DNA of 23,293 nt from IMG/VR virus record IMGVR_UViG_3300021961_000655, positions 1-23,293 of that record, one strand, 5' to 3'. The notes under the pieces are model-generated. The model saw only the letters and a program-made list of their open reading frames with translations. It searched no databases and was not told the origin of the DNA. Shown here piece after piece: positions 6,150 to 23,293 of the stretch. This DNA is from a virus. The stretch's first letter is position 1; each line of letters begins with the position of its first letter. Made by a program: the position numbers and the translations under genes.

Positions 6150-8461
6150 TGGCTCAAATTAAAATATATGAACCATCAGAATATTTTAATACCTTAAAAC
6201 AAGGTGACGTTGATACAGGTGAAGGTTCTTTACCTGAAGCTCCACTTAAAATAAGATTTTTAGTAGAAGGAGCACCTAATAGAGAATCTAAATTAGCAAC
6301 CTTAAAAAAATTTTATACAGATGTTCAAGAAATCGAAGATGGTAATTATATCTTAACTGATGCTAAAGGTAAGAAACATATTTTTGATGATAGAGAAAAA
6401 ACTAATTTTGCAGATTTTATTGATGCATCTAAAGAAATAACAGAAGCTTTAGCATCTACAGCAGGAGCCATTGGAGGATCTATGATTGCACCAGGAGCGG
6501 GTACGATAGTAGGATCTGGAGCAGGTATGGCGGCAGGAGCAGAAGCATTTGAAAGAGTGGCTCAAATGTTTGGTACAGAAATTTTACGAACTCCAGAAGA
6601 GTATGCTAGACAAAGAGCAACCGATGTTGCTTTTGGTTCGGTGGGTCAAGCAGTAGCTCCTATGATATTTAAAACACTTAAATACGGTATTACTGGAGGA
6701 AAAGAGGCTATTGCAAAAGCAGGTCAAAGATTAGAGGCTTTTGTTAATGCAGGAGTGCAACCTAGTTTAGGTCAAGTTACAACAAACAGAGGAATTCAAA
6801 CCATTGAATTAGCTTTGGGAAATATACCAGGATCTTCTGGAAAGATTGCACAATTTGCCCAAAAGGCTCAAGATGATTTTGGAAAATCAGTAGTTAACTT
6901 ATCAAAAAAAATCTTAGCTGGCGAAGGTGCTACTTTAGATGATATAGCTAAACAAGCTATTCCAGATGAAACTATTGCTGGTCAAGTTATTCAAAAAGGT
7001 ATTTCTGATAAAGGTATGTTAAATGGAGTTAACTCCATGGATAGTTGGACAGGAAGATTTAAATCTGTAACAGGATTATTGTTTAATAAAGTAGATGAGT
7101 ACGTTCCTCCTAAATCTTTATTTAATATTTCTAATACACAAAACATGTTATTAGATTTAAATAAACCAATAGCAGGAGCTCCTACAGTAACTAAACTTTT
7201 AGAAAATCCTTTCATAGCGGATGTATTTGAAGGAGTATTAAAAGACTCCTCTAAGTTAGCAACCAAAGATGGAGTAGGTAGACTATCTTATGAAGCTTTA
7301 AAAACTATGAGAAGTAGAATTGGAGATAGATTATCTGATGCTACTTTAATAGGTAATACTGAAAAAGGACAATTAAAACAATTGTATGCAGCACTTACAA
7401 GAGATATTGAAGCTGGTGTATTAAACACAGGCGGTCCTAAAGCAGTTAATGCATTACAAAGAGCAAATGCAACTTATGAAAAAGGTTTACAAAAATTAGA
7501 TGATTTTTTACAACCTATATATAATAAAGCAGATCCAGATAACATTGTGAAAAGTTTAATGGGATCTTCAACGGAAGGTGCTACAAGGATTGCTGCGGTT
7601 AAATCTTCTCTTACTGCTCCACAATATAAAGTTTTATTATCTACTATCTTAGATAAAATGGGAAGAATTTCTGCAGGTCAAGGATTAGCAGAAGGAGTAG
7701 AGCAGACAGGTAGATTTTCAACAGAAGTATTTTTAACCAATTGGAATAAATTATCTCCTGCAGCTAAAAAAGTTTTATTTAATGGTAAAGGTTTCGGTCC
7801 TGGAATGATTAAAGATTTAGATGCTTTAACTAAAGTAAGTTCTATTATCAGAGAAAGTGGTAAAACATTTAAAAACCCATCTGGTACTGCAGATAGACTA
7901 GCAGGTGTTGGTTTAGTAATTGGAGGAGGTGCAGGAGTAGTAACTGGTAATCCAATGTTCTTAGCAGCTCTACCTATGGTTATGGGGGCGGCTAATTTAA
8001 CAGCTAGATTAATGACTAATCCTAAATTTGTTAAATGGGCAGCTGAAGCTACTAAAATAGCAGGTAATAAAGGATATCAAGGAATAGCAGAACATTTAAC
8101 TAAATTAGGAGTTATTGCGGCTAACTCATCTCCAGAAGAAAGACAATATTTATATGAGTACATGGACACTATAGCTAAATCTGGAAACGCTAATGCTGCA
8201 TTAGTCACGGAAGAAGATAAAATGTCTATTAAACCTACTAGAGGTGGTGGAGAACAAATTACTACGGAACAACAAATTAACGTACCTACTTTAGATAGAT
8301 CTATTTTACCTGGTGCATCTACAGGAGCTTCCATGGCACCTAGTACAATGCCCACGGCTCAGGGAGCTGGTGGAATAGCTTCTTTAGCAGCTAACCCTCA
8401 AACCTATCAAGCACTGTTTCCTGGTGATACATTAGGTGCAGTAATAGCAGGTAGACGATAA
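6149..8461 (+). CDS. Large internal virion / DNA-ejection-type protein (770 aa)
   Basis: A large late protein. Residues about 36-75 (FLVEGAPNRESKLATLKKFY, then NYILTD) match a module I recall at the N-terminus of big podovirus virion proteins thought to enter the cell with DNA. Next come Ala/Gly-rich hydrophobic stretches, about 97-130 (TAGAIGGSMIAPGAGTIVGS), and a second near 585-615 (GVGLVIGGGAGVVTGNPMF), both able to interact with membranes. The middle is long and helical (SYEALKTMRSRIGDRLSDA is typical). No lysozyme or transglycosylase active site is visible. Position and size match the largest ejection protein of T7-like phages, but this is inference, not sequence identity. It starts after the AGGAGG at 6139 and its stop overlaps the next ATG at 8461. 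Confidence 0.7.
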   Translation: MAQIKIYEPSEYFNTLKQGDVDTGEGSLPEAPLKIRFLVEGAPNRESKLATLKKFYTDVQEIEDGNYILTDAKGKKHIFDDREKTNFADFIDASKEITEALASTAGAIGGSMIAPGAGTIVGSGAGMAAGAEAFERVAQMFGTEILRTPEEYARQRATDVAFGSVGQAVAPMIFKTLKYGITGGKEAIAKAGQRLEAFVNAGVQPSLGQVTTNRGIQTIELALGNIPGSSGKIAQFAQKAQDDFGKSVVNLSKKILAGEGATLDDIAKQAIPDETIAGQVIQKGISDKGMLNGVNSMDSWTGRFKSVTGLLFNKVDEYVPPKSLFNISNTQNMLLDLNKPIAGAPTVTKLLENPFIADVFEGVLKDSSKLATKDGVGRLSYEALKTMRSRIGDRLSDATLIGNTEKGQLKQLYAALTRDIEAGVLNTGGPKAVNALQRANATYEKGLQKLDDFLQPIYNKADPDNIVKSLMGSSTEGATRIAAVKSSLTAPQYKVLLSTILDKMGRISAGQGLAEGVEQTGRFSTEVFLTNWNKLSPAAKKVLFNGKGFGPGMIKDLDALTKVSSIIRESGKTFKNPSGTADRLAGVGLVIGGGAGVVTGNPMFLAALPMVMGAANLTARLMTNPKFVKWAAEATKIAGNKGYQGIAEHLTKLGVIAANSSPEERQYLYEYMDTIAKSGNANAALVTEEDKMSIKPTRGGGEQITTEQQINVPTLDRSILPGASTGASMAPSTMPTAQGAGGIASLAANPQTYQALFPGDTLGAVIAGRR

Positions 8462-10901: not shown

Positions 10902-10909
10902 AGTAACTA

Positions 10910-10953
10910 GGGCAGTAGCTGTAGTACTAAAAGCTACTGCCCTTTTCTATTTT
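10910..10953 (+). terminator. Strong intrinsic terminator after the hsp20 operon
   Basis: GGGCAGTAGCT (10910-10920) pairs perfectly with AGCTACTGCCC (10932-10942), an 11-bp stem with an 11-nt loop, and is followed by TTTTCTATTTT. It ends + strand transcription before the convergent SNF2 gene. Confidence 0.9.
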
Positions 10954-11020: not shown

Positions 11021-12448
11021 TTAATTAAGCCAAGTTTTAATTTCTTCACCCAAGGTCTCTCCAGATATGGTAAGTTTTTTATTGAGAGCATCTACAATTT
11101 TTTCATCTATTGTTTGTTTGGCTATTATATCAATGTAAACAACGTTCTTTTTTTGACCTATTCGGTGTGCTCTGTCTTCCGATTGAAGTCTCACTTCTAA
11201 GTTGTAATTATTAGAAAAATAAATAACATAACCAGCTTCAGTTAAAGTTAATCCATAACCTCCTACGGTTGGATTACCAATAAAGAAACGAACATTAGGA
11301 TCCGTTTGAAAGTCATGGCAAATCTTTTTACGACTATCTACAGAGGTTGCTCCATACATAGTAACACAACTATCTTTACCGTATTTTTTAGATATTTCAT
11401 AAGCAATGTCCTGTATGTTTTTAACATAGTTAGCCCAAATAATTGCTTTACCATTAATCTCATCTAACACTGTCATTAGTTCATCCATTTTTGGATTCTC
11501 TAATTCTTCTGTTTCTCCATTATCATTTTTTACAAAACCATTTGTAACTTGATGTAATCTTAATATTTCAGTTAGTTTGTTAGTAAAAGAAACAGTGCTA
11601 TCGTTTAATACAGCAAAGGCTTTTTGTTTTAATTTCTCGTACAATAATTCTTGTTTATTCTTTAACGTAACATATCTTTGCTCATATATTTTTTCTGGTA
11701 TATCTAAGCAATCTTCTTTTTTAATTCTGGTAGAAAAAGTTTTAATTTTATATTCTAGCTCATCTAAATTTTTATAAAATTTTGGTATCTGCACTTGTTG
11801 ATTGGCTCCTGTATAAATAGTATGCATCTCTGCATATCTCGCTCTAAAAGCATAAAACGAATCATATCCTAATAAAGTAGTGTCTAAAAATTTACATTGT
11901 GCATATAAATCTAAAGGTGATTTAGTAATCGGAGATCCTGTTAAGATCCTACGAACCACGGCCAACGGAGCAATCTTATGAATATGTTTAGTTCGTTTAG
12001 CTTTAGGATTTTTAATGGTAGTAGCTTCATCAATGATGACAGCACTTTTTTTATTAATATGTAAAAACAATAATGCATTTTCAAATCCATTTTTACTAGA
12101 TAGAGCTTCTACATTCATTAATAGAATAGAAAATGTATCTAATAATTTATGGTTAATGATATTAACTTTTTTTGTTTTCGTTAAATTCCAAACTTGTATG
12201 TATCTACTTACATCATCTGATAGATGAGTATTAATTTCTTTTTCCCACATGGCGTAAACAGATTTAGGAGCAATGATTAAAGCTGATTCGATTTTCTTTT
12301 CTTGATACAACATACCTAGATTATCTATGGTAGTTTTAGTTTTACCTGTACCCATGTCCATGAAAAAAGCCCAATTCACTTTATCTTTGCAATCTTTAAT
12401 AGCTTGTAGTTGATGTTCGTAAGGTTTTGTTTTAAATTTATAATCCAT
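11021..12448 (-). CDS. SNF2-type (SF2) helicase / ATPase
   Basis: A 475-aa SF2 helicase-like ATPase of the SNF2/RapA type, which moves on double-stranded DNA using ATP. Motifs: EHQ near residue 11, Walker A DMGTGKTKT (31-39), APKS motif Ia (60-63), Walker B IIDEATTIKN with DEAT at 140-143, motif III LTGSPITKSP (169-178), then GYGLTLTEA motif V, and motif VI QSEDRAHRIGQ (422-432) with the arginine finger. Length equals a bare motor core with no accessory domains. It is the only large gene on the minus strand and is flanked by divergent promoters at its head and terminators at its tail, so it is a separate transcription unit. It probably works in replication, recombination or restart. Confidence 0.9.
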   Translation of the reverse strand: MDYKFKTKPYEHQLQAIKDCKDKVNWAFFMDMGTGKTKTTIDNLGMLYQEKKIESALIIAPKSVYAMWEKEINTHLSDDVSRYIQVWNLTKTKKVNIINHKLLDTFSILLMNVEALSSKNGFENALLFLHINKKSAVIIDEATTIKNPKAKRTKHIHKIAPLAVVRRILTGSPITKSPLDLYAQCKFLDTTLLGYDSFYAFRARYAEMHTIYTGANQQVQIPKFYKNLDELEYKIKTFSTRIKKEDCLDIPEKIYEQRYVTLKNKQELLYEKLKQKAFAVLNDSTVSFTNKLTEILRLHQVTNGFVKNDNGETEELENPKMDELMTVLDEINGKAIIWANYVKNIQDIAYEISKKYGKDSCVTMYGATSVDSRKKICHDFQTDPNVRFFIGNPTVGGYGLTLTEAGYVIYFSNNYNLEVRLQSEDRAHRIGQKKNVVYIDIIAKQTIDEKIVDALNKKLTISGETLGEEIKTWLN

Positions 12449-12454
12449 AAAAAT

Positions 12455-12483
12455 CGTATATATTTAATTGTTGACTTCGTAAA
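12455..12483 (-). promoter_or_regulatory. Candidate promoter for the SNF2 gene
   Basis: On the minus strand, -35 TTTACG (12478-12483) and -10 TATACG (12455-12460) are 17 nt apart. Only 6 nt separate the -10 from ATG 12448, so the mRNA would have almost no leader. No SD is present. Confidence 0.45.
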
Positions 12484-12498
12484 GGAAATAATTATACG
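12471..12498 (+). promoter_or_regulatory. Promoter for the replication operon
   Basis: TTGACT (12471-12476) and TATACG (12493-12498) with a 16-nt spacer precede ATG 12507 by 8 nt. An AAGGA at 12482-12486 is too far from the ATG to serve as an SD. The promoter overlaps the opposing SNF2 promoter within a 58-nt intergenic gap. Confidence 0.6.
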
Positions 12499-12506
12499 TA
12501 TCAAAC

Positions 12507-13043
12507 ATGGATATCGAAAATATAAAAATAAGTGTAGATGACAAAGCTGTACATGGCATCGCCACTAAGTGTAATGAATTAACAGATTTACTAAGAGAAA
12601 TAGAAGGTAAAGAAAACGAATTGCTTATCTTGCAGAAAAAAGCAAAAGATCTTCAAGAGCGGGTCATTCCCGACTTGATGCACCAGGCAGGTGTTGATTC
12701 GATCGATCTAAGAGATGGTTCAAGGGTTGAGGTCAAACCTGCCTACTACGCTAAAATACCTACCGAAAGAGAGCAGGAAGCTTTTGATTGGCTAAGGCAA
12801 AACGGCAAAGACAGTTTAATTAAGAATACAGTTACTGCGTCCTTTGATAAAGGACAAGATAATTTAGTATCTCAATTAATCCAAGTCTGTGAAGAAAATG
12901 GTTTTAGTTATAATAAAAAACAAAAAGTAGAACCAATGACTTTAAAAGGTTTTGTCAGAGAACAGATTGAAGATGGGAAACAAATCCCTATGGATCTGTT
13001 TGGAGTATATATAGCAAACAAAACTAAAATAACTAACAAATAA
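12507..13043 (+). CDS. Conserved coiled-coil phage protein, first gene of the replication operon
   Basis: A 178-aa soluble protein. Residues 20-57 form a coiled coil (TDLLREIEGKENELLILQKK). A short beta element follows (GVDSIDLRDGSRVEVKP, 62-78), then a helical domain ending in MTLKGFVREQIEDGKQIPMD and LFGVYIANKTKI. I recall proteins with this TLKxxVREQ...LFGVY ending next to SSB-like genes in other phages, without a known function. It is 9 nt upstream of the SSB-like gene and heads the operon, so a role with SSB or the replisome is plausible. The start at 12507 is supported by the promoter position rather than by an SD. Confidence 0.75.
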   Translation: MDIENIKISVDDKAVHGIATKCNELTDLLREIEGKENELLILQKKAKDLQERVIPDLMHQAGVDSIDLRDGSRVEVKPAYYAKIPTEREQEAFDWLRQNGKDSLIKNTVTASFDKGQDNLVSQLIQVCEENGFSYNKKQKVEPMTLKGFVREQIEDGKQIPMDLFGVYIANKTKITNK

Positions 13044-13841: not shown

Positions 13842-15436
13842 TGCAATCACAGGTAACTTCCTTGGAACAGTTTCAAAAGCTGTTCCAAGGGTCTGAAACT
13901 TATTATGGCGAATCTAAACCTAAAGGAACTAAAAGACCTGATGGTAAAGATGAATATAAGTCTTGGATCAATCAACACCCTATTCAAAATTCTGATTGGT
14001 CTGATCATGTTAATGGCTCTAGGCATGTCGGTGTCGTTCCTATTCGTGATGATTCTACATGCTCATGGGGTGTCATAGACGTTGATAGATATAATCTAGA
14101 TCACATAACTCTTATTAAAATAATAAGAGAAAGAAAATATCCTTTAGTTCCTTATAGATCTAAATCTAACGGACTTCATTTAATTATCCATATAGATGGA
14201 ACTGTACCTGCAAAACTAATGAGAGAAAAATTGATTGAAATTGCAAGTGACTTAGGAGTCAAGGATGAAACAACTGATATATTTCCTGCACAAGATTATG
14301 TGGATCTTACTCCAGAGGATTGGAATGAAAAGAAAAAAGGAAATTTTGTAAACCTACCTTATCAAAAAGCAGCAAGAACTACTAGAATGGCTTTGTATGA
14401 TAATGGAATGGGAGTACCCTTTATTGATTTATATACCTACGTTCAAAAATTTATAGTGAAACCAGAGGATCTAAGTAAAATAAACACTGAGACAACAGAG
14501 GATCCTAAATTAAAAGATTATCCACCTTGTGTGCAAGGCTTTATTAAAAACAAAGTAAAAGAGGGACATGGAAGAAATGATGCTATGTTCAACTGCGCTG
14601 TTCTATGTAAAAAAATTAATCCAGACGAGCATGAATGGCCAGAACTATTTAGAGAAATTAATAAAATTGTAGGAGAACCTCCTTTATCTGGTAAAGAATT
14701 AAATACATTAATCAATCAACATAAAAAAAATGAATATGGTTTTAGATGTGGAACTTCTATTGCTAAGGCACATTGCGACCAAAGAAAATGTTTAACAAAA
14801 AAATATGGAATTAATAGAAACGAAAGTATGCCAGAGGTTGGTAAACTTATTAAATACAATGTCTATCCTGAACCATATTGGGTGCTTCCTGTTAATGGAG
14901 TTAATATTAAATTAGATAATAAAGAATTGTACTCACAAAGATTGTTTGCTGAGAAATTACAAACTGCAGATATTGTATGGAGAACATTAAAAGCATCTAA
15001 ACAATCACCTGACCCATGGTCTGATTTTAAAGACGAGTTAATTAAAAATAAAATTGATATGGAAGGATATGATGCACTAGCTGATAAGGATGATTTTTAT
15101 AATTCTAAAATGGTTCAATTTTTTGAAGACAGTGAACTACATGAATCTTTTGATCAAATTGATAATGGTTATTTGTGGTTAGATAATCAAGATCTTACGA
15201 AAGCAACAGAGCTTCGCTTTAAAATACAAACGTTTCAAAAGTTTATGAAGAAAATGGGAAGTAATTGGGGATATAAAGAATGTACTAATTTTTTACAGTC
15301 TGGAGGTGCCACACCTAGCAAGAAACATGATAATATACAGACAAGACATTGGAGAAGTCCTATGCCAAGAATTCAGCAGTATAAGAATAAAGAGGTGAGA
15401 CATGAAAAGAAATCAGCTCCATGGCAAGACAATTAA
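13841..15436 (+). CDS. Archaeo-eukaryotic (AEP/PrimPol-like) primase
   Basis: A 531-aa protein of the archaeo-eukaryotic primase superfamily. The catalytic core has the hhhDhD metal motif SWGVIDVDRY (D80, D82) and the SxxxGxH motif in YRSKSNGLHLIIHID (S107, G111, H113). D146 in ETTDIFPAQ is a candidate third acidic residue. A helical region follows with YPPCVQGFIK (C230), GHGRNDAMF and C303, C312, C317. These four Cys have the order and spacing expected of a zinc or PriL-like Fe-S domain; the metal is inferred. The C-terminal 180 aa are helical and unassigned. The start ATG overlaps the SSB-like stop (TAATG), and a strong hairpin lies 19 nt in. It should lay primers for the family-A polymerase. 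Confidence 0.8.
   Translation: MQSQVTSLEQFQKLFQGSETYYGESKPKGTKRPDGKDEYKSWINQHPIQNSDWSDHVNGSRHVGVVPIRDDSTCSWGVIDVDRYNLDHITLIKIIRERKYPLVPYRSKSNGLHLIIHIDGTVPAKLMREKLIEIASDLGVKDETTDIFPAQDYVDLTPEDWNEKKKGNFVNLPYQKAARTTRMALYDNGMGVPFIDLYTYVQKFIVKPEDLSKINTETTEDPKLKDYPPCVQGFIKNKVKEGHGRNDAMFNCAVLCKKINPDEHEWPELFREINKIVGEPPLSGKELNTLINQHKKNEYGFRCGTSIAKAHCDQRKCLTKKYGINRNESMPEVGKLIKYNVYPEPYWVLPVNGVNIKLDNKELYSQRLFAEKLQTADIVWRTLKASKQSPDPWSDFKDELIKNKIDMEGYDALADKDDFYNSKMVQFFEDSELHESFDQIDNGYLWLDNQDLTKATELRFKIQTFQKFMKKMGSNWGYKECTNFLQSGGATPSKKHDNIQTRHWRSPMPRIQQYKNKEVRHEKKSAPWQDN
13860..13890 (+). repeat. Perfect inverted repeat just inside the primase gene
   Basis: CCTTGGAACAG (13860-13870) and CTGTTCCAAGG (13880-13890) are exact 11-bp complements with a 9-nt spacer (tttcaaaag). 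The spacer can add two A-T pairs and a G-U pair. It is at codons 7-17 of the primase gene and has no U run after it, so it is not a terminator. It could be an operator, an RNA processing site or a translation brake. Confidence 0.85.
15392..15395 (+). promoter_or_regulatory. Shine-Dalgarno that fixes the UvrD-like start
   Basis: GAGG, within AGAGGTGAG, lies 6 nt before ATG 15402, inside the primase gene. It supports the start that overlaps the primase by 35 nt. Confidence 0.7.
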
Positions 15437-17902: not shown

Positions 17903-19767
17903 CACATCAACTTAACTTTACTTTTCAAGAATCAGATTGGGTATGTCCATCAGAATACCCAGATTTATCTCATGCTGATGCAATTGCCATTGACTTAGAA
18001 ACTAAGGATCCTAATTTAAAAACATTAGGTCCAGGATGGCCACGATTTGATGGAGCCATTATAGGTTTTGCTGTGGCTACCGCAGGTCAGCAATATTATT
18101 TTCCTATTCAACATGATGCAGGTGGCAATATGGATTTAGCTATTACTACAGCCTATATGCAAGATTTATTAAAACTACCTTGTCCTAAAATATTTCATAA
18201 TGCACAATACGATGTAGGTTGGTTAAAGATTAATGGTTTTGAAATTAAAGGACCTATTATTGATACTATGATTGCAGCTGCAGTAGTTAATGAGAATAGA
18301 TATTCCTATTCATTAAATGCCTTGTGTTTTGATTTGTTAGGAGAAATTAAATCAGAAAACTTTTTAAATGAAAAAGCAAAGGAATGGGGAATAGATCCTA
18401 AACAAGATATGTGGAAGCTTCCTGCAGGGTATGTAGGTCATTATGCAGAACAAGATGCAGCACTAACTTATAAACTTTGGCAACATTTAAAACCTATTAT
18501 TATAAAAGAAAATTTACAAGATGTCTGGGAAATGGAGATGGAATTACTTCCTATTCTTATTGAAATGAGGATGACAGGACTTAGAGTGGATTTAGATAAA
18601 ATCAAAATACTAAAGAAAGAATTCATTAGTGATGAAAATAAAATATTAAGAGAAATTAAAGACCTTACCGGTATGGGAGTAGATATATGGGCTAATCGAT
18701 CGGTAGCAAAAGTATTTGATCATTTAGGTTTAGACTATCCTAAAACAGAAAAAACAAAAGAACCTAGCTTTACTGCTAATTGGTTAGAAAATTGTGAACA
18801 TAAAATTGCAAAACTAATTAGAGATGCAAGAGAAGTAAATAAATTTCATTCTACTTTCTTAGATGCAATTGATAGGCATTCTTTTAAAGGACGAATTCAT
18901 TCTGAGATACACCAATTAAGATCCGATGGCGGAGGAACGGTATCAGGTCGATTGAGTTATTCTAACATGAACCTACAACAAATTCCTGCACGTAACAAAG
19001 AATACGGAAATAAAATTAGAAGTTTATTCTTACCCGAAGAAGGAAGACAGTGGGGTTCTTTTGATTACAGTCAGCAAGAACCACGGCTCGTGGCTCACTA
19101 TGCAGCTTCTATTGAGCAAGGCTTTACCGGTGCAGATGAATTTATTCAAGCTTACAAAAATGAAGAGGCGGACTTCCATCAATTGGTTGCGGATATGGCA
19201 GGTATACCAAGATCAGCAGCTAAGACAATTAACCTGGGTATCTTTTATGGAATGGGTAAAAATAAATTATCTAGAGAACTTGGGATATCTAAAGAAGATG
19301 CAGAGCAATTACTACAGCGATACGATGCAAGAGTTCCTTTTGTTAAGAAATTAGCTAATGAAGTAATGTCTTCGGCAAGTAAATTTGGATTTATAAGAAC
19401 TATTAAAGGACGTAAATGTAGATTTGATATGTGGGAGCCAACTACTTTTGGTATGTATCAATCTATGAAATACGAAGAAGCTAAGGCACATTATGGAAAC
19501 AATATTAAACGAGCAGGAACCTACAAAGCATTAAATAGATTAATTCAAGGATCCGCAGCAGATCAATCTAAACAAGCCATGATTGATTGTTATAAAGCAG
19601 GACATAGACCTTTGTTACAAATACATGATGAATTATGTTTTTCTATTAATGAAGAAAAAGACACAGAATTAATTAAAGAAAAGATGACAACGTGTATTGA
19701 AAATCTAAAAGTACCTTTCACAGTAGATGTAGCATTAGGGAGATCTTGGGGTGAAGCAAAAGAGTAA
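17899..19767 (+). CDS. polA: Family-A DNA polymerase with 3'-5' exonuclease
   Basis: A 622-aa replicative polymerase. The proofreading domain is intact: Exo I AIDLETKDP (D32, E34), Exo II FHNAQYDVGWL (N101, D105), Exo III HYAEQDAALTY (Y182, D186). The polymerase domain has TVSGRLSYSNMNLQQIPAR (347-365), motif A FDYSQQEPR (D389), motif B R438/K442/Y450 in RSAAKTINLGIFYGMG, and motif C QIHDELCF (H576-D577-E578). It has no 5'-3' exonuclease domain, as in other phage enzymes. The position equal to E. coli Phe762 is Leu446. The start ATG overlaps the methyltransferase stop. It should work with the primase, helicase and SSB-like protein of the same operon. Confidence 0.95.
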   Translation: MTHQLNFTFQESDWVCPSEYPDLSHADAIAIDLETKDPNLKTLGPGWPRFDGAIIGFAVATAGQQYYFPIQHDAGGNMDLAITTAYMQDLLKLPCPKIFHNAQYDVGWLKINGFEIKGPIIDTMIAAAVVNENRYSYSLNALCFDLLGEIKSENFLNEKAKEWGIDPKQDMWKLPAGYVGHYAEQDAALTYKLWQHLKPIIIKENLQDVWEMEMELLPILIEMRMTGLRVDLDKIKILKKEFISDENKILREIKDLTGMGVDIWANRSVAKVFDHLGLDYPKTEKTKEPSFTANWLENCEHKIAKLIRDAREVNKFHSTFLDAIDRHSFKGRIHSEIHQLRSDGGGTVSGRLSYSNMNLQQIPARNKEYGNKIRSLFLPEEGRQWGSFDYSQQEPRLVAHYAASIEQGFTGADEFIQAYKNEEADFHQLVADMAGIPRSAAKTINLGIFYGMGKNKLSRELGISKEDAEQLLQRYDARVPFVKKLANEVMSSASKFGFIRTIKGRKCRFDMWEPTTFGMYQSMKYEEAKAHYGNNIKRAGTYKALNRLIQGSAADQSKQAMIDCYKAGHRPLLQIHDELCFSINEEKDTELIKEKMTTCIENLKVPFTVDVALGRSWGEAKE

Positions 19768-20699: not shown

Positions 20700-20826
20700 T
20701 TTTTTTCCTCCAAAATTTTTTTCTCCATAATAAAAAGCTTTCTTGACCATCCCAATAATAACCTTCAAATTCGTAACCTCTACGTTTTTTAAAGTCTTTA
20801 TTGGTATGAGTAGCCTTAACTATCAT
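20653..20826 (-). CDS. Possible small basic protein (57 aa)
   Basis: A frame from ATG 20826 to a TAA ending at 20653. The first 35 residues look protein-like (KKRRGYEFEGYYWDGQESFL), and the end is Lys/Arg/His-rich. It overlaps the stop of the upstream RHH-like gene by 11 nt, so it may be translationally coupled; the nearest GGAG is about 21 nt upstream, too far for an SD. It overlaps the 40-aa membrane-protein gene by 47 nt. It otherwise fills a gap in the minus-strand cluster. Not a recognised family. Confidence 0.4.
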   Translation of the reverse strand: MIVKATHTNKDFKKRRGYEFEGYYWDGQESFLLWRKKFWRKKNVNLRKHTQRHQAKN

Positions 20827-21055
20827 GGCCGTTTTTTAATGTTTTTTCTCCTTGATGTTCTATACCCTCACTTAACAATTGTTCAATCATTTTAGAAGAA
20901 CTAACATTATTCTTTTTAGCTACTTTACTTACTTCTTGATCTACTAATTTGGCAATCATGGCTCCAGGTTTTCTATAACCATGTTTGCATAATGCTTGTA
21001 GAAGATAATAACTTTTAACATCTACCGCTACAGATTTCCATTTTGATACGTCCAT
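20816..21055 (-). CDS. Possible ribbon-helix-helix DNA-binding protein (79 aa)
   Basis: A 79-aa protein. The pattern SKWKSVAVDVKSYYLLQALC, then KPGAMIAKLVDQEV, is strand, turn, helix, turn, helix, as in small Arc/MetJ-type regulators; the rest is polar. ATG 21055 is favoured by an AAGG about 8 nt upstream. A longer start at 21085 (MIPNNQKGIN added) lies only 3 nt after a -10 box and would give a leaderless mRNA. It is the first gene of the minus-strand cluster and faces a divergent promoter region, a typical place for a regulator. The fold call is from pattern only; no family is proven. Confidence 0.55.
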   Translation of the reverse strand: MDVSKWKSVAVDVKSYYLLQALCKHGYRKPGAMIAKLVDQEVSKVAKKNNVSSSKMIEQLLSEGIEHQGEKTLKNGHDS

Positions 21056-21088: not shown

Positions 21089-21116
21089 CTTATAATAGTG
21101 ATAAATAATATGTCAA
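21089..21116 (-). promoter_or_regulatory. Sigma70-like promoter for the minus-strand cluster
   Basis: A perfect -35 TTGACA (21111-21116) and -10 TATAAG (21089-21094), spacer 16. A 10-bp palindrome ATAAGCTTAT (21084-21093) overlaps the -10 and could be an operator for a dimeric regulator. Confidence 0.7.
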
Positions 21117-21152
21117 CCCATAAAATTACATAAATTATGAGATATACACAAT

Positions 21153-21181
21153 TTGACTTTTTTCAAAAACTTACCTATAAC
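21153..21181 (+). promoter_or_regulatory. Sigma70-like promoter for a short + strand transcript
   Basis: TTGACT (21153-21158) and TATAAC (21176-21181) with an ideal 17-nt spacer. The inverted repeat CCTAT-aaca-ATAGG (21174-21187) covers the -10 and the likely start site near 21188. Confidence 0.7.
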
Positions 21182-21187
21182 AATAGG

Positions 21188-21271
21188 GCATAAACTTTCT
21201 TATAGGTTTATAATTTTTGGTTAATGAATGGGGCAGGTAATTCTTGGCTCTCCTTGGATTACCTGCTTTTA
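21188..21271 (+). ncRNA. Candidate small RNA or terminated leader (about 85 nt)
   Basis: The 84-nt span runs from the predicted start of the 21153 promoter to the end of an intrinsic terminator. It holds a 6-bp hairpin, ATAAAC/GTTTAT (21190-21195 and 21206-21211), and the terminator stem. It shows no tRNA features. Either it is a discrete small RNA or an attenuated leader for the virion gene at 21290. Boundaries are predicted from sequence only. Confidence 0.45.
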
Positions 21272-21272
21272 T
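21233..21272 (+). terminator. Intrinsic terminator upstream of the large virion gene
   Basis: GCAGGTAAT (21233-21241) pairs exactly with ATTACCTGC (21258-21266), a 9-bp stem over a 16-nt loop that can form a few inner pairs, followed by TTTTATT. It lies 18 nt before ATG 21290. Confidence 0.7.
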
Positions 21273-21282
21273 TCTGTATAAT
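21254..21282 (+). promoter_or_regulatory. Candidate promoter for the virion gene at 21290
   Basis: A perfect TATAAT (21277-21282) with a weak -35 TTGGAT (21254-21259) at 17 nt. The -10 ends 7 nt before ATG 21290 and no SD is present, predicting a leaderless mRNA. The -35 overlaps the terminator's 3' arm, so readthrough and new initiation would be set at the same spot. Confidence 0.45.
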
Positions 21283-21289
21283 CATTCTC

Positions 21290-23293
21290 ATGGCAGCTCC
21301 AATATTAGGAATACCCGCATTATATGAATTACTTGTAGGAACAGGACTACTTGCCGGAGGTGCTGTAACTACACAACAAATGCAGAAACAAGTTGAGTCT
21401 AATCCAGAGTTAGTTCAAGAAGCATTAAAAAGAGTATTTGCAGGTCCTGCAACTAATTTAGTTAATCCAGATGTTTTAAAATCGGTATCCCAAACTCCAT
21501 CGGGTAGCGTGTTTGGACCACAACAAAAAGACATTGATAAGATACAAAAAGAAATTAAAGAATTAAGTAAGTTACCAGGCTACAGTACCATTGATGAATT
21601 AATGTCCAACGTAGAAACATTAAATCCTCCTGAACCAGAAACAAAACAATTAACTACTCCTATTCCAGGAAGTGATATTATAGAAATCAATAAAGAAAGT
21701 TTCCCTCCTGCACCTAAGATAGATACTTCTATCTTAACCATGAAAGATCCAAAAGAATTTTTAGCAAAAGATAAAAACACAAAACAATATATTGAAGCTA
21801 CGAACCCAACCAAAATATTTGGAGAAAGTAATTTACAAGACGTAGACTACAAAGCCAAAGAAGTAACTCCTATTGAATATCGATTTGATCCTAAAACTTA
21901 TAATACAGTGTATGAGCAATCAATTACAGAACTAAGTGATAAAACAAATGTAGACGTTCCTAAAATTGTCAAAAAATTTAACTTAACAATGCCAGATATT
22001 AATTTGGTTAATAGTTCGTTAGAAGCTGCAGCGGATCCTGATAAACGTTATTGGTATCAACGTTCAGGAAACTATTTAAAAAAATTAGTTACTACCATAG
22101 ATCCTAACGCAACCGATAAAGATGTAGCAAACTTTATTGATATTGTTTCTGTAACATCAGGTGGAGTAGCACCGAAACAAAATTTAAAACTAGCGCTCGG
22201 TGTGTATTCTGATTTAAAACAAAACCAACCATCCATGACAGGATTTAAAACACAACAAAGTTTAGATAAATATTTAGCGAACAAAGACGAAGTTATTAAT
22301 ACACCTAAATTTGGTAACTTTACCGACACCATGAAATACTTTGCAGGAGTAGGAGAAAGACAACCGAATGTGGTTAATGATTTACAAATGGCAAAAATGT
22401 TTGGTGTTAAACCAGATCAATTAGCATCGAACCCTGAACTGTATAACACGATGACAGGGATCATGAATAATCTAACAGCAGAAGTAAATAAACAATTACC
22501 TAAAGGACAAGAATTACAACCGTTTGAATTACAATCTTTGATGTGGTCTCAAGCTAGAGGAGTAGCATCTAACTACGAACAAGTAGGACAAGAATTAATT
22601 AAAGAACTATATGACCAAGGAATTAATATTGAAACCGATGTCCTGCAACCAGGATTTTCTGAGCGATTACAAAAAACAATAACTCCATATAAAGAAGCTA
22701 TGAAAGGTACGATTGAGATTGGATCTTTCTTAACTCCACAAGGTAAAGAAGTAGAAAAAATTATTAATGAATTCGGAACCGATCCAAAAGTAATGGAAGG
22801 TATTAACTCGATCCATGTATCAGGATTAAAAAAATTAATTACGAAACAAGCAAAACAACCGTCTGTCGTAGAGGATATTATTTCTAATGTCATTGGACAA
22901 AAAGCAGAGATATCTAGAATGCAAGTTGGTTTAGGTACTTATGAGGGTAATGCAAATTACAATGTCGTGATACCTTTAACAGTAAACACGGCTCAGGGAC
23001 CACGGCCATTGTCTGATGAAGAACGATTACAAACATTAGCTGTTTTGGGTACAGAATTAAATCAAGCAGCAATGGCAGCTTCCAACTTTAGAACTTTAGC
23101 GGATCCTAATTTAAAAGAGGGAGAACAGGCTACAGGCCAAATTTATGCTAAATTTCCTGTAGATCAGTCTAAAATACAACAATTACACGCTGAAACAGGC
23201 TTAGATTTTAACGTAACACCTGTTCCTGGAGGGTTTATTGGCTCTATTATTTCATTTAATGGTGCTCCAGATAAGGCAAAAATTGACCAAGCC
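21290..23293 (+). CDS. Large probable virion protein, open at the right edge
   Basis: An uninterrupted frame of 668 codons from ATG 21290 to the end of the window, with no stop. The N-terminus is hydrophobic (PILGIPALYELLVGTGLLAG, residues 4-23) and the rest polar and mostly helical, for example LQSLMWSQARGVASNYEQVG and VQEALKRVF. An LQ-x-x-x-W-type helix like this occurs in other big phage proteins in my memory, but I cannot name the family. Size, a membrane-active N-terminus and lack of enzyme motifs suggest a virion or DNA-ejection protein at the head of a second late block. An in-frame ATG at 21224 would add a hydrophobic 22-residue stretch, but it places the terminator inside the gene, so 21290 is preferred. 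Confidence 0.7.
   Translation, partial: MAAPILGIPALYELLVGTGLLAGGAVTTQQMQKQVESNPELVQEALKRVFAGPATNLVNPDVLKSVSQTPSGSVFGPQQKDIDKIQKEIKELSKLPGYSTIDELMSNVETLNPPEPETKQLTTPIPGSDIIEINKESFPPAPKIDTSILTMKDPKEFLAKDKNTKQYIEATNPTKIFGESNLQDVDYKAKEVTPIEYRFDPKTYNTVYEQSITELSDKTNVDVPKIVKKFNLTMPDINLVNSSLEAAADPDKRYWYQRSGNYLKKLVTTIDPNATDKDVANFIDIVSVTSGGVAPKQNLKLALGVYSDLKQNQPSMTGFKTQQSLDKYLANKDEVINTPKFGNFTDTMKYFAGVGERQPNVVNDLQMAKMFGVKPDQLASNPELYNTMTGIMNNLTAEVNKQLPKGQELQPFELQSLMWSQARGVASNYEQVGQELIKELYDQGINIETDVLQPGFSERLQKTITPYKEAMKGTIEIGSFLTPQGKEVEKIINEFGTDPKVMEGINSIHVSGLKKLITKQAKQPSVVEDIISNVIGQKAEISRMQVGLGTYEGNANYNVVIPLTVNTAQGPRPLSDEERLQTLAVLGTELNQAAMAASNFRTLADPNLKEGEQATGQIYAKFPVDQSKIQQLHAETGLDFNVTPVPGGFIGSIISFNGAPDKAKIDQA

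Follow-up and report, generated by a model that had tools for sequence, protein, structure and literature searches.

The window analysed here is a virus record of 23,293 bases, a fragment of a pelagiphage (SAR11-type marine phage) of the HTVC023P type. The DNA polymerase encoded in it has 60% identity to the counterpart in Pelagibacter phage HTVC023P, and replication genes lie upstream of the unit described below, as in HTVC023P. The unit, a promoter-like sequence (P1) followed by two hairpins (HP1 and HP2), sits within a divergent intergenic region of 204 bases, with leftward small genes from about 21085 and a long rightward gene from 21290. A sequence-only reading of this DNA had named TTGACT, TATAAC, both hairpins and a second −10 box, and all of these were found at the positions claimed. 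The features are as follows.

20816..21055, minus strand: first leftward gene, Arc/CopG-like ribbon-helix-helix protein of a 37-member family, likely start 21055
21089..21116, minus strand: divergent leftward promoter TTGACA-16 nt-TATAAG, 11/12 consensus positions, −35 block conserved in the next clade (clade B)
21153..21181, plus strand: P1, promoter-like, TTGACT-17 nt-TATAAC, 10/12 consensus positions, C at −7
21174..21187, plus strand: dyad CCTAT-AACA-ATAGG over the −10 box of P1, candidate for an operator or for the core of a recurring promoter
21188..21273, plus strand: predicted noncoding RNA of about 86 nt, predicted start near 21188 and predicted end at the U-tract
21190..21211, plus strand: HP1, 5′ hairpin of 8 bp with a 6-nt loop, recognised from sequence and from pair-compatible changes in relatives
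21233..21266, plus strand: HP2, terminator-like hairpin, 9 perfect bp, 14–16 bp with G–U extension
21267..21273, plus strand: U-tract TTTTATT after HP2, identical in both relatives that carry the unit
21254..21282, plus strand: P2, TTGGAT-17 nt-TATAAT, proposed promoter of the downstream gene from conservation of 21254–21289
21290..23293, plus strand: downstream gene, 668 aa to the window end (761 aa in contig L002)

The yardstick for P1 was a sigma-70 promoter with −35 and −10 hexamers 16–18 nt apart, A at −11 and T at −7. The two hexamers of P1 (21153–21158 and 21176–21181) are correctly spaced, and one change in 29 nt separates P1 from its copy in L002. It is the C at the key −7 position that leads a standard promoter scan to reject P1. 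The consensus match alone is no evidence of a promoter, because such matches are no commoner here than in shuffled DNA: the window holds 14 sites with at least 10/12 matches compared to a mean of 25.8 in shuffles, fewer than expected by chance. A promoter followed at comparable spacing by a hairpin and a T-run occurs about 0.15 times per shuffled window and was present in 2 of 20 shuffles. Promoter matches of this quality are frequent by chance, which would allow the promoter-like match and the hairpin to be a chance coincidence; the conservation of P1 and the directional selection on pairing described below make that explanation highly improbable.

The fold of the 86-nt RNA stands above chance, with −25.8 kcal/mol and a z-score of −3.9, and a 102-nt stretch (16 nt more) reaches −5.1. 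A GC-corrected scan of both strands (4642 windows) placed the unit as the second-strongest fold, behind a hairpin at 10909–10943; the latter is a 12-bp bidirectional terminator-like hairpin between convergent genes. No Rfam family matched the unit at or above its gathering cut-off. HP2, with perfect arms at 21233–21241 and 21258–21266, has the structure of an intrinsic terminator (−17.8 to −20.1 kcal/mol) and is followed by an interrupted T-run. It is one of only two strong terminator-like hairpins on the plus strand of the window, and the built-in terminator scan, with loops limited to at most 8 nt, did not list it. Between the replication operon and HP2 the window scan found no plus-strand terminator-like hairpin. 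Reading rightward from the replication operon, HP2 is the first intrinsic terminator encountered in the window, and it would therefore shield the downstream gene from read-through. Intrinsic terminators are used elsewhere in this phage group, for example after the capsid gene, and HP2 shares with these ordinary terminators a hairpin plus a T-run. It differs from them in its longer, CU-rich loop, in its interrupted T-run and in lying 5′ of a gene and not 3′.

Two IMG/VR contigs, L001 and L002 (the latter belonging to genome G001), carry the entire unit without indels, and their downstream protein is 94% identical to that of the window; a third related contig, L003 (G003), ends before the unit. 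Compared to L002, the window has one change in 45 nt over P1 and its flanks (21148–21192) and none in the 36 nt from P2 to the ATG (21254–21289), while HP1 plus the linker between the hairpins have 8 changes in 40 nt. The linker is the fastest-changing part, with 4 of 18 positions changed, mostly by transversions. The 86-nt RNA carries 12 changes in total. Each of the seven that fall in stems is a transition after which a standard or G–U pair remains; outside the stems three of five changes are transversions. HP1 has three stem changes in L001 and L002 and HP2 has four changes versus L002, in or adjoining the stem, each of them compatible with pairing. Both distinct sequences, that of the window and that of the relatives, form each of the 24 pairs. 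When the same changes were placed at random, no pair was broken in 1.4% of trials (P = 0.014), and no pair was broken with at least seven changes falling in stems in 0.25% (P = 0.0025), for what is one evolutionary comparison with a structure derived from the compared sequences themselves.

Read on the opposite strand, 5 of the 24 pairs fail in the window and 6 of 24 in L002, and the folding energy weakens from about −26 to −16 kcal/mol. Pairing is preserved only on the rightward strand, and selection therefore appears to act on an RNA that is read rightward. A DNA cruciform or a leftward RNA was considered and rejected, since the stem changes give G–U pairs on the rightward strand only. The check proposed earlier, conservation of the stems with compensatory changes, is answered in part: the closest relatives retain both stems, with changes that are compatible with pairing, but the two distinct sequences that carry the unit show no two-sided compensatory change. 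We consider a structured noncoding RNA read rightward to be well supported by this comparison. More distant homologues did not appear: pattern searches gave none in IMG/VR beyond the two known contigs and none in bacterial genomes, and nhmmer or BLAST gave none in 84 loci and 25 records. A covariance-model match at L108:4226-4303 (G001 23226-23303) is below threshold (23.6 bits, E 0.055) and probably due to chance. At that place a similar two-hairpin fold lies between leftward genes, without a promoter.

Between P1 and HP2 no ORF is conserved in the window and its relatives, in agreement with the earlier view of a gene-free unit. Translation from the ATG at 21224, which that reading had considered, is excluded, as relatives L001 and L002 have TAA directly after this ATG; the ATG at 21228 is lost there. 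Another conceivable reading is that the unit extends the downstream protein at its N-terminus, with a start at ATG 21224 or TTG 21254; the frame is indeed open, in the window from 21224 onward and in L002 from the TTG. The same ATG–TAA in the relatives argues against such an extension, as does the absence of a Shine-Dalgarno sequence 5′ of either start. Moreover, in L012 of clade B, where the reading frame was checked, an in-frame TAA lies close to the ATG of the homologous gene on its 5′ side, so that the start in L012 is not further 5′. We regard the probability of an N-terminal extension as close to negligible.

The earlier statement of a separate −10 box for the downstream gene holds. TATAAT is found at 21277–21282, 7 nt before the ATG at 21290, the −35 of P2 falls on the 3′ edge of the loop of HP2, and the predicted start of P2 transcription falls on or adjoins the ATG. 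Clade B, represented by L006, L007, L010 and L012, retains TATAAT a few nt 5′ of the ATG of its gene in all four contigs. It has no P1, HP1 or HP2, and the intergenic region of L012 is without unusual structure (z 0.06), with no equivalent of either hairpin. Since clade B keeps TATAAT without the unit, P2 is probably the older, shared promoter of both clades, and the P1-HP1-HP2 unit is probably particular to one lineage. P2 is similar to leaderless and near-leaderless bacterial promoters in having TATAAT 7 nt before the ATG and no Shine-Dalgarno sequence, and TATAAT shortly precedes the ATG in clade B too; P2 differs in that the start site in the window phage is a predicted one. Some genes that head a transcription unit have a −10-like box 6–9 nt before the ATG and no Shine-Dalgarno sequence (window:21277-21290; L012:9369-9385; G001 6583 and 5096(−)), unlike operon-internal genes, which often have GGAG. 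This suggests that their mRNAs may be leaderless or near-leaderless.

The downstream gene had been called a virion gene, a label that sequence comparison does not bear out: the protein of the window has no Pfam or NCBIfam family above cut-off and a weak PHROG match only. Its homologue in clade B has about 60 N-terminal aa in common with it (about 60% identity) and in addition a Zeta_toxin/AAA_33 domain, and it is only this homologue that matches a 'minor head protein' family, via the kinase-like domain. The N-terminal 60 aa or so, a glycine-rich hydrophobic helix, are joined to differing C-terminal parts (L012:9383-11038, L007:9383-, window:21290-23293), which are of the Zeta_toxin/AAA_33 kinase-like type in clade B and an unrecognised part of 700 aa in the clade of the window. 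The conserved N-terminus looks like a shared module for targeting or virion docking with exchangeable cargo.

The dyad CCTAT..ATAGG over the P1 −10 box occurs once in the window and three times in G001, all intergenic and on the same strand. The P1 core, AAAAACTT(A/T)CCTATAACAATAGG, is present in two further copies, spaced by 70 nt, at another place in both G001 and G003. These extra copies of AAAAACTTTCCTATAACAATAGG are on the same strand as the gene downstream of the unit and end just before a small gene that is also present in clade B; no −35 is found at the usual distance from them and no hairpins follow. They form part of tandem 70-nt repeats at L002:6464-6580 (G001 19465-19570), also seen in L111 (G003), which sit between a C-5 cytosine DNA methylase gene and the conserved small gene. 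Matches to the 17-mer AAAAACTTTCCTATAACAATAGG elsewhere in IMG/VR resemble chance or coding sequence, and additional matches to a shorter P1 core resemble coding stretches unrelated to the unit.

The leftward side of the region may offer a ligand for the dyad. The Arc/CopG-like protein has weak but mutually consistent matches: those to profiles are RHH_5 0.004, RHH_1 0.014 and PHROG Arc-like repressor E 0.0045, and in Foldseek the best-ranked structures are Arc, CopG and RHH antitoxins, every one with E above 1. Both helices are visible in a model of the monomer and the strand is absent. To take this protein as a candidate binder of the P1 dyad is speculative. In clade B a ParB-like gene comes immediately 5′ of the Arc/CopG-like gene (L012:8126-8923(−) and 7904-8110(−)), and a similar reading frame seems to precede the Arc/CopG-like gene in more distant relatives too. 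The clade of the window has lost the ParB-like gene, which leaves the Arc/CopG-like gene first behind the leftward promoter.

If P1 were a protein-binding repeat and no promoter, HP2 would be a mere terminator of read-through from upstream. The C at −7 of P1, the tandem copies of its core in G001 that lack a −35 at 17 nt, and the place of HP2 as the first rightward terminator after the replication operon are all in line with this. Nevertheless, TTGACT is retained at the correct spacing in the relatives, and HP1 is located at the predicted 5′ end of the RNA and is itself under selection for pairing, so we find this explanation distinctly unlikely.

Given this anatomy, the rightward selection on pairing, the lack of any ORF shared with the relatives and the −10 box retained 5′ of the gene, the best reading in our view is a terminated leader or boundary element that acts locally, to which we would give about an even chance. 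Host RNA polymerase would initiate at P1, giving an RNA of about 86 nt with HP1 at its 5′ end and HP2 as an intrinsic terminator, and most of this transcription would end at the U-tract. HP2 would also block any read-through from the replication operon. The gene at 21290 would be driven by P2, with a start at or adjoining the ATG. P1 itself could be controlled at its dyad, speculatively by the divergent Arc/CopG-like protein. The host enzyme is the likely one because the phage RNA polymerase of HTVC022P has been described as specific to HTVC022P, in a comparison with the HTVC023P-type phage HTVC027P, and was not reported in HTVC027P (PMC12753301). Retention of the entire arrangement in L001 and L002 counts for a terminated leader or boundary element, as does the P1 core found just 5′ of another conserved small gene in G001. 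Against it count the C at −7 of P1, the interrupted U-tract, the presence of the unit in two distinct sequences only and its absence from clade B.

The same order of parts, a promoter, a short untranslated RNA, an intrinsic terminator and a gene, with a possible regulatory site at the promoter, is found in the lambdoid late unit PR′-tR′ (lambda, 21, 82). The leader RNA of lambda PR′ is 194 nt long, compared to about 86 nt predicted in the window phage. By analogy, P1 might be constitutive and HP2 stop its transcripts until a phage factor, loaded near P1, permits read-through later. PR′ requires a site for the factor near the −10/−35 elements and, early in the transcribed region, a −10-like site for pausing (PMC6606751). 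The dyad overlaps the P1 −10 box, and 25 nt downstream the −10 region is partly repeated as CATAAACTTTCTTATA; this pause-like copy is without T at −7, which weakens the analogy. Q-type antiterminators (PF06530, PF03589) were not found above cut-off in the window, G001, G004, G005, HTVC023P, psg01 and HTVC027P, several of these seven being fragments and an unrelated factor being possible. It is important to note that the gene has a conserved promoter-like sequence of its own adjoining the ATG, P2, and would therefore have no need of read-through from P1. The window phage is of the HTVC023P type, whose studied member HTVC027P has been described as lytic. We consider an antitermination leader unlikely. 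A broader proposal also seems improbable to us: P1 and its dyad would serve this lineage as a dedicated regulatory promoter that is repeated, and HP2 as a genuine switch between termination and read-through that times the downstream gene. If it is true, HTVC023P-type pelagiphages would have a leader-based control system; the literature searched describes neither a promoter nor a regulator in this group.

The sequence-only reading had left the choice between an attenuator and a discrete small RNA; the leader now ranks above the latter. In favour of an RNA acting in trans on phage or host mRNAs are the selection on its structure and a 5′ hairpin with a 3′ terminator within some 86 nt, the usual build of stable small RNAs of phages (OOP, sar, PreS). 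The earlier statement that named phage RNAs of this form are lacking is not correct, as OOP of lambda (77 nt), sar of P22 (68/69 nt) and PreS (about 88 nt) are of comparable size (PMC12197685). The unit resembles these RNAs in size and in its autonomous promoter-to-terminator layout. They differ from it in having targets that have been shown, while the unit overlaps no gene in antisense and has neither a conserved seed nor a target. A conserved single-stranded seed with targets was not found, either in the linker compared to L002 or among phage targets in G001. The fast change of the linker argues against action in trans, and so does the confinement of the unit to one narrow lineage. The anti-Shine-Dalgarno loop (CUCUCCUU) was tried as a targeting site and rejected: its duplex energies with 47 translation starts of G001 are not above those of shuffles. 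Specifically, pairing of the loop to translation starts gave 0.43 for the G001 loop versus shuffled loops, and the loop of the window is marginal at 0.075. The trans-acting claim is thus unsupported, with the linker changing fastest and the loop failing in the genome of the relative, and we consider a small RNA of this kind doubtful. P22 sar acts at a locus that also encodes the Arc repressor; likewise, an Arc/CopG-like gene divergently adjoins the window unit.

We would class the unit as a putative terminated leader or boundary RNA, an element of a known type within a phage group that has received little study. The P1 core, the structured leader and the near-leaderless start are concrete sites to seek in RNA-seq of infections by HTVC023P-type phages. 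If termination at HP2 is regulated, it would offer a starting point for understanding how the timing of genes in these phages is achieved with the host polymerase.

A hairpin between gp24 and gp25 of HTVC023P was considered as an analogue of the unit and rejected, as it reads as an ordinary gp24 terminator. Tandem repeats of about 33 nt (GCAAATCTTGAGAATACATACCGAAAATTTTTT) precede gp22 of HTVC023P at 12373–12566 (L113:1380-1567), and a 418-nt gap with repeated TTGAGAATAACAACGAAA units lies before gp26 at 14888–15305 (L113:3889-4306). Both sets of repeats are candidate iterons or regulatory arrays.
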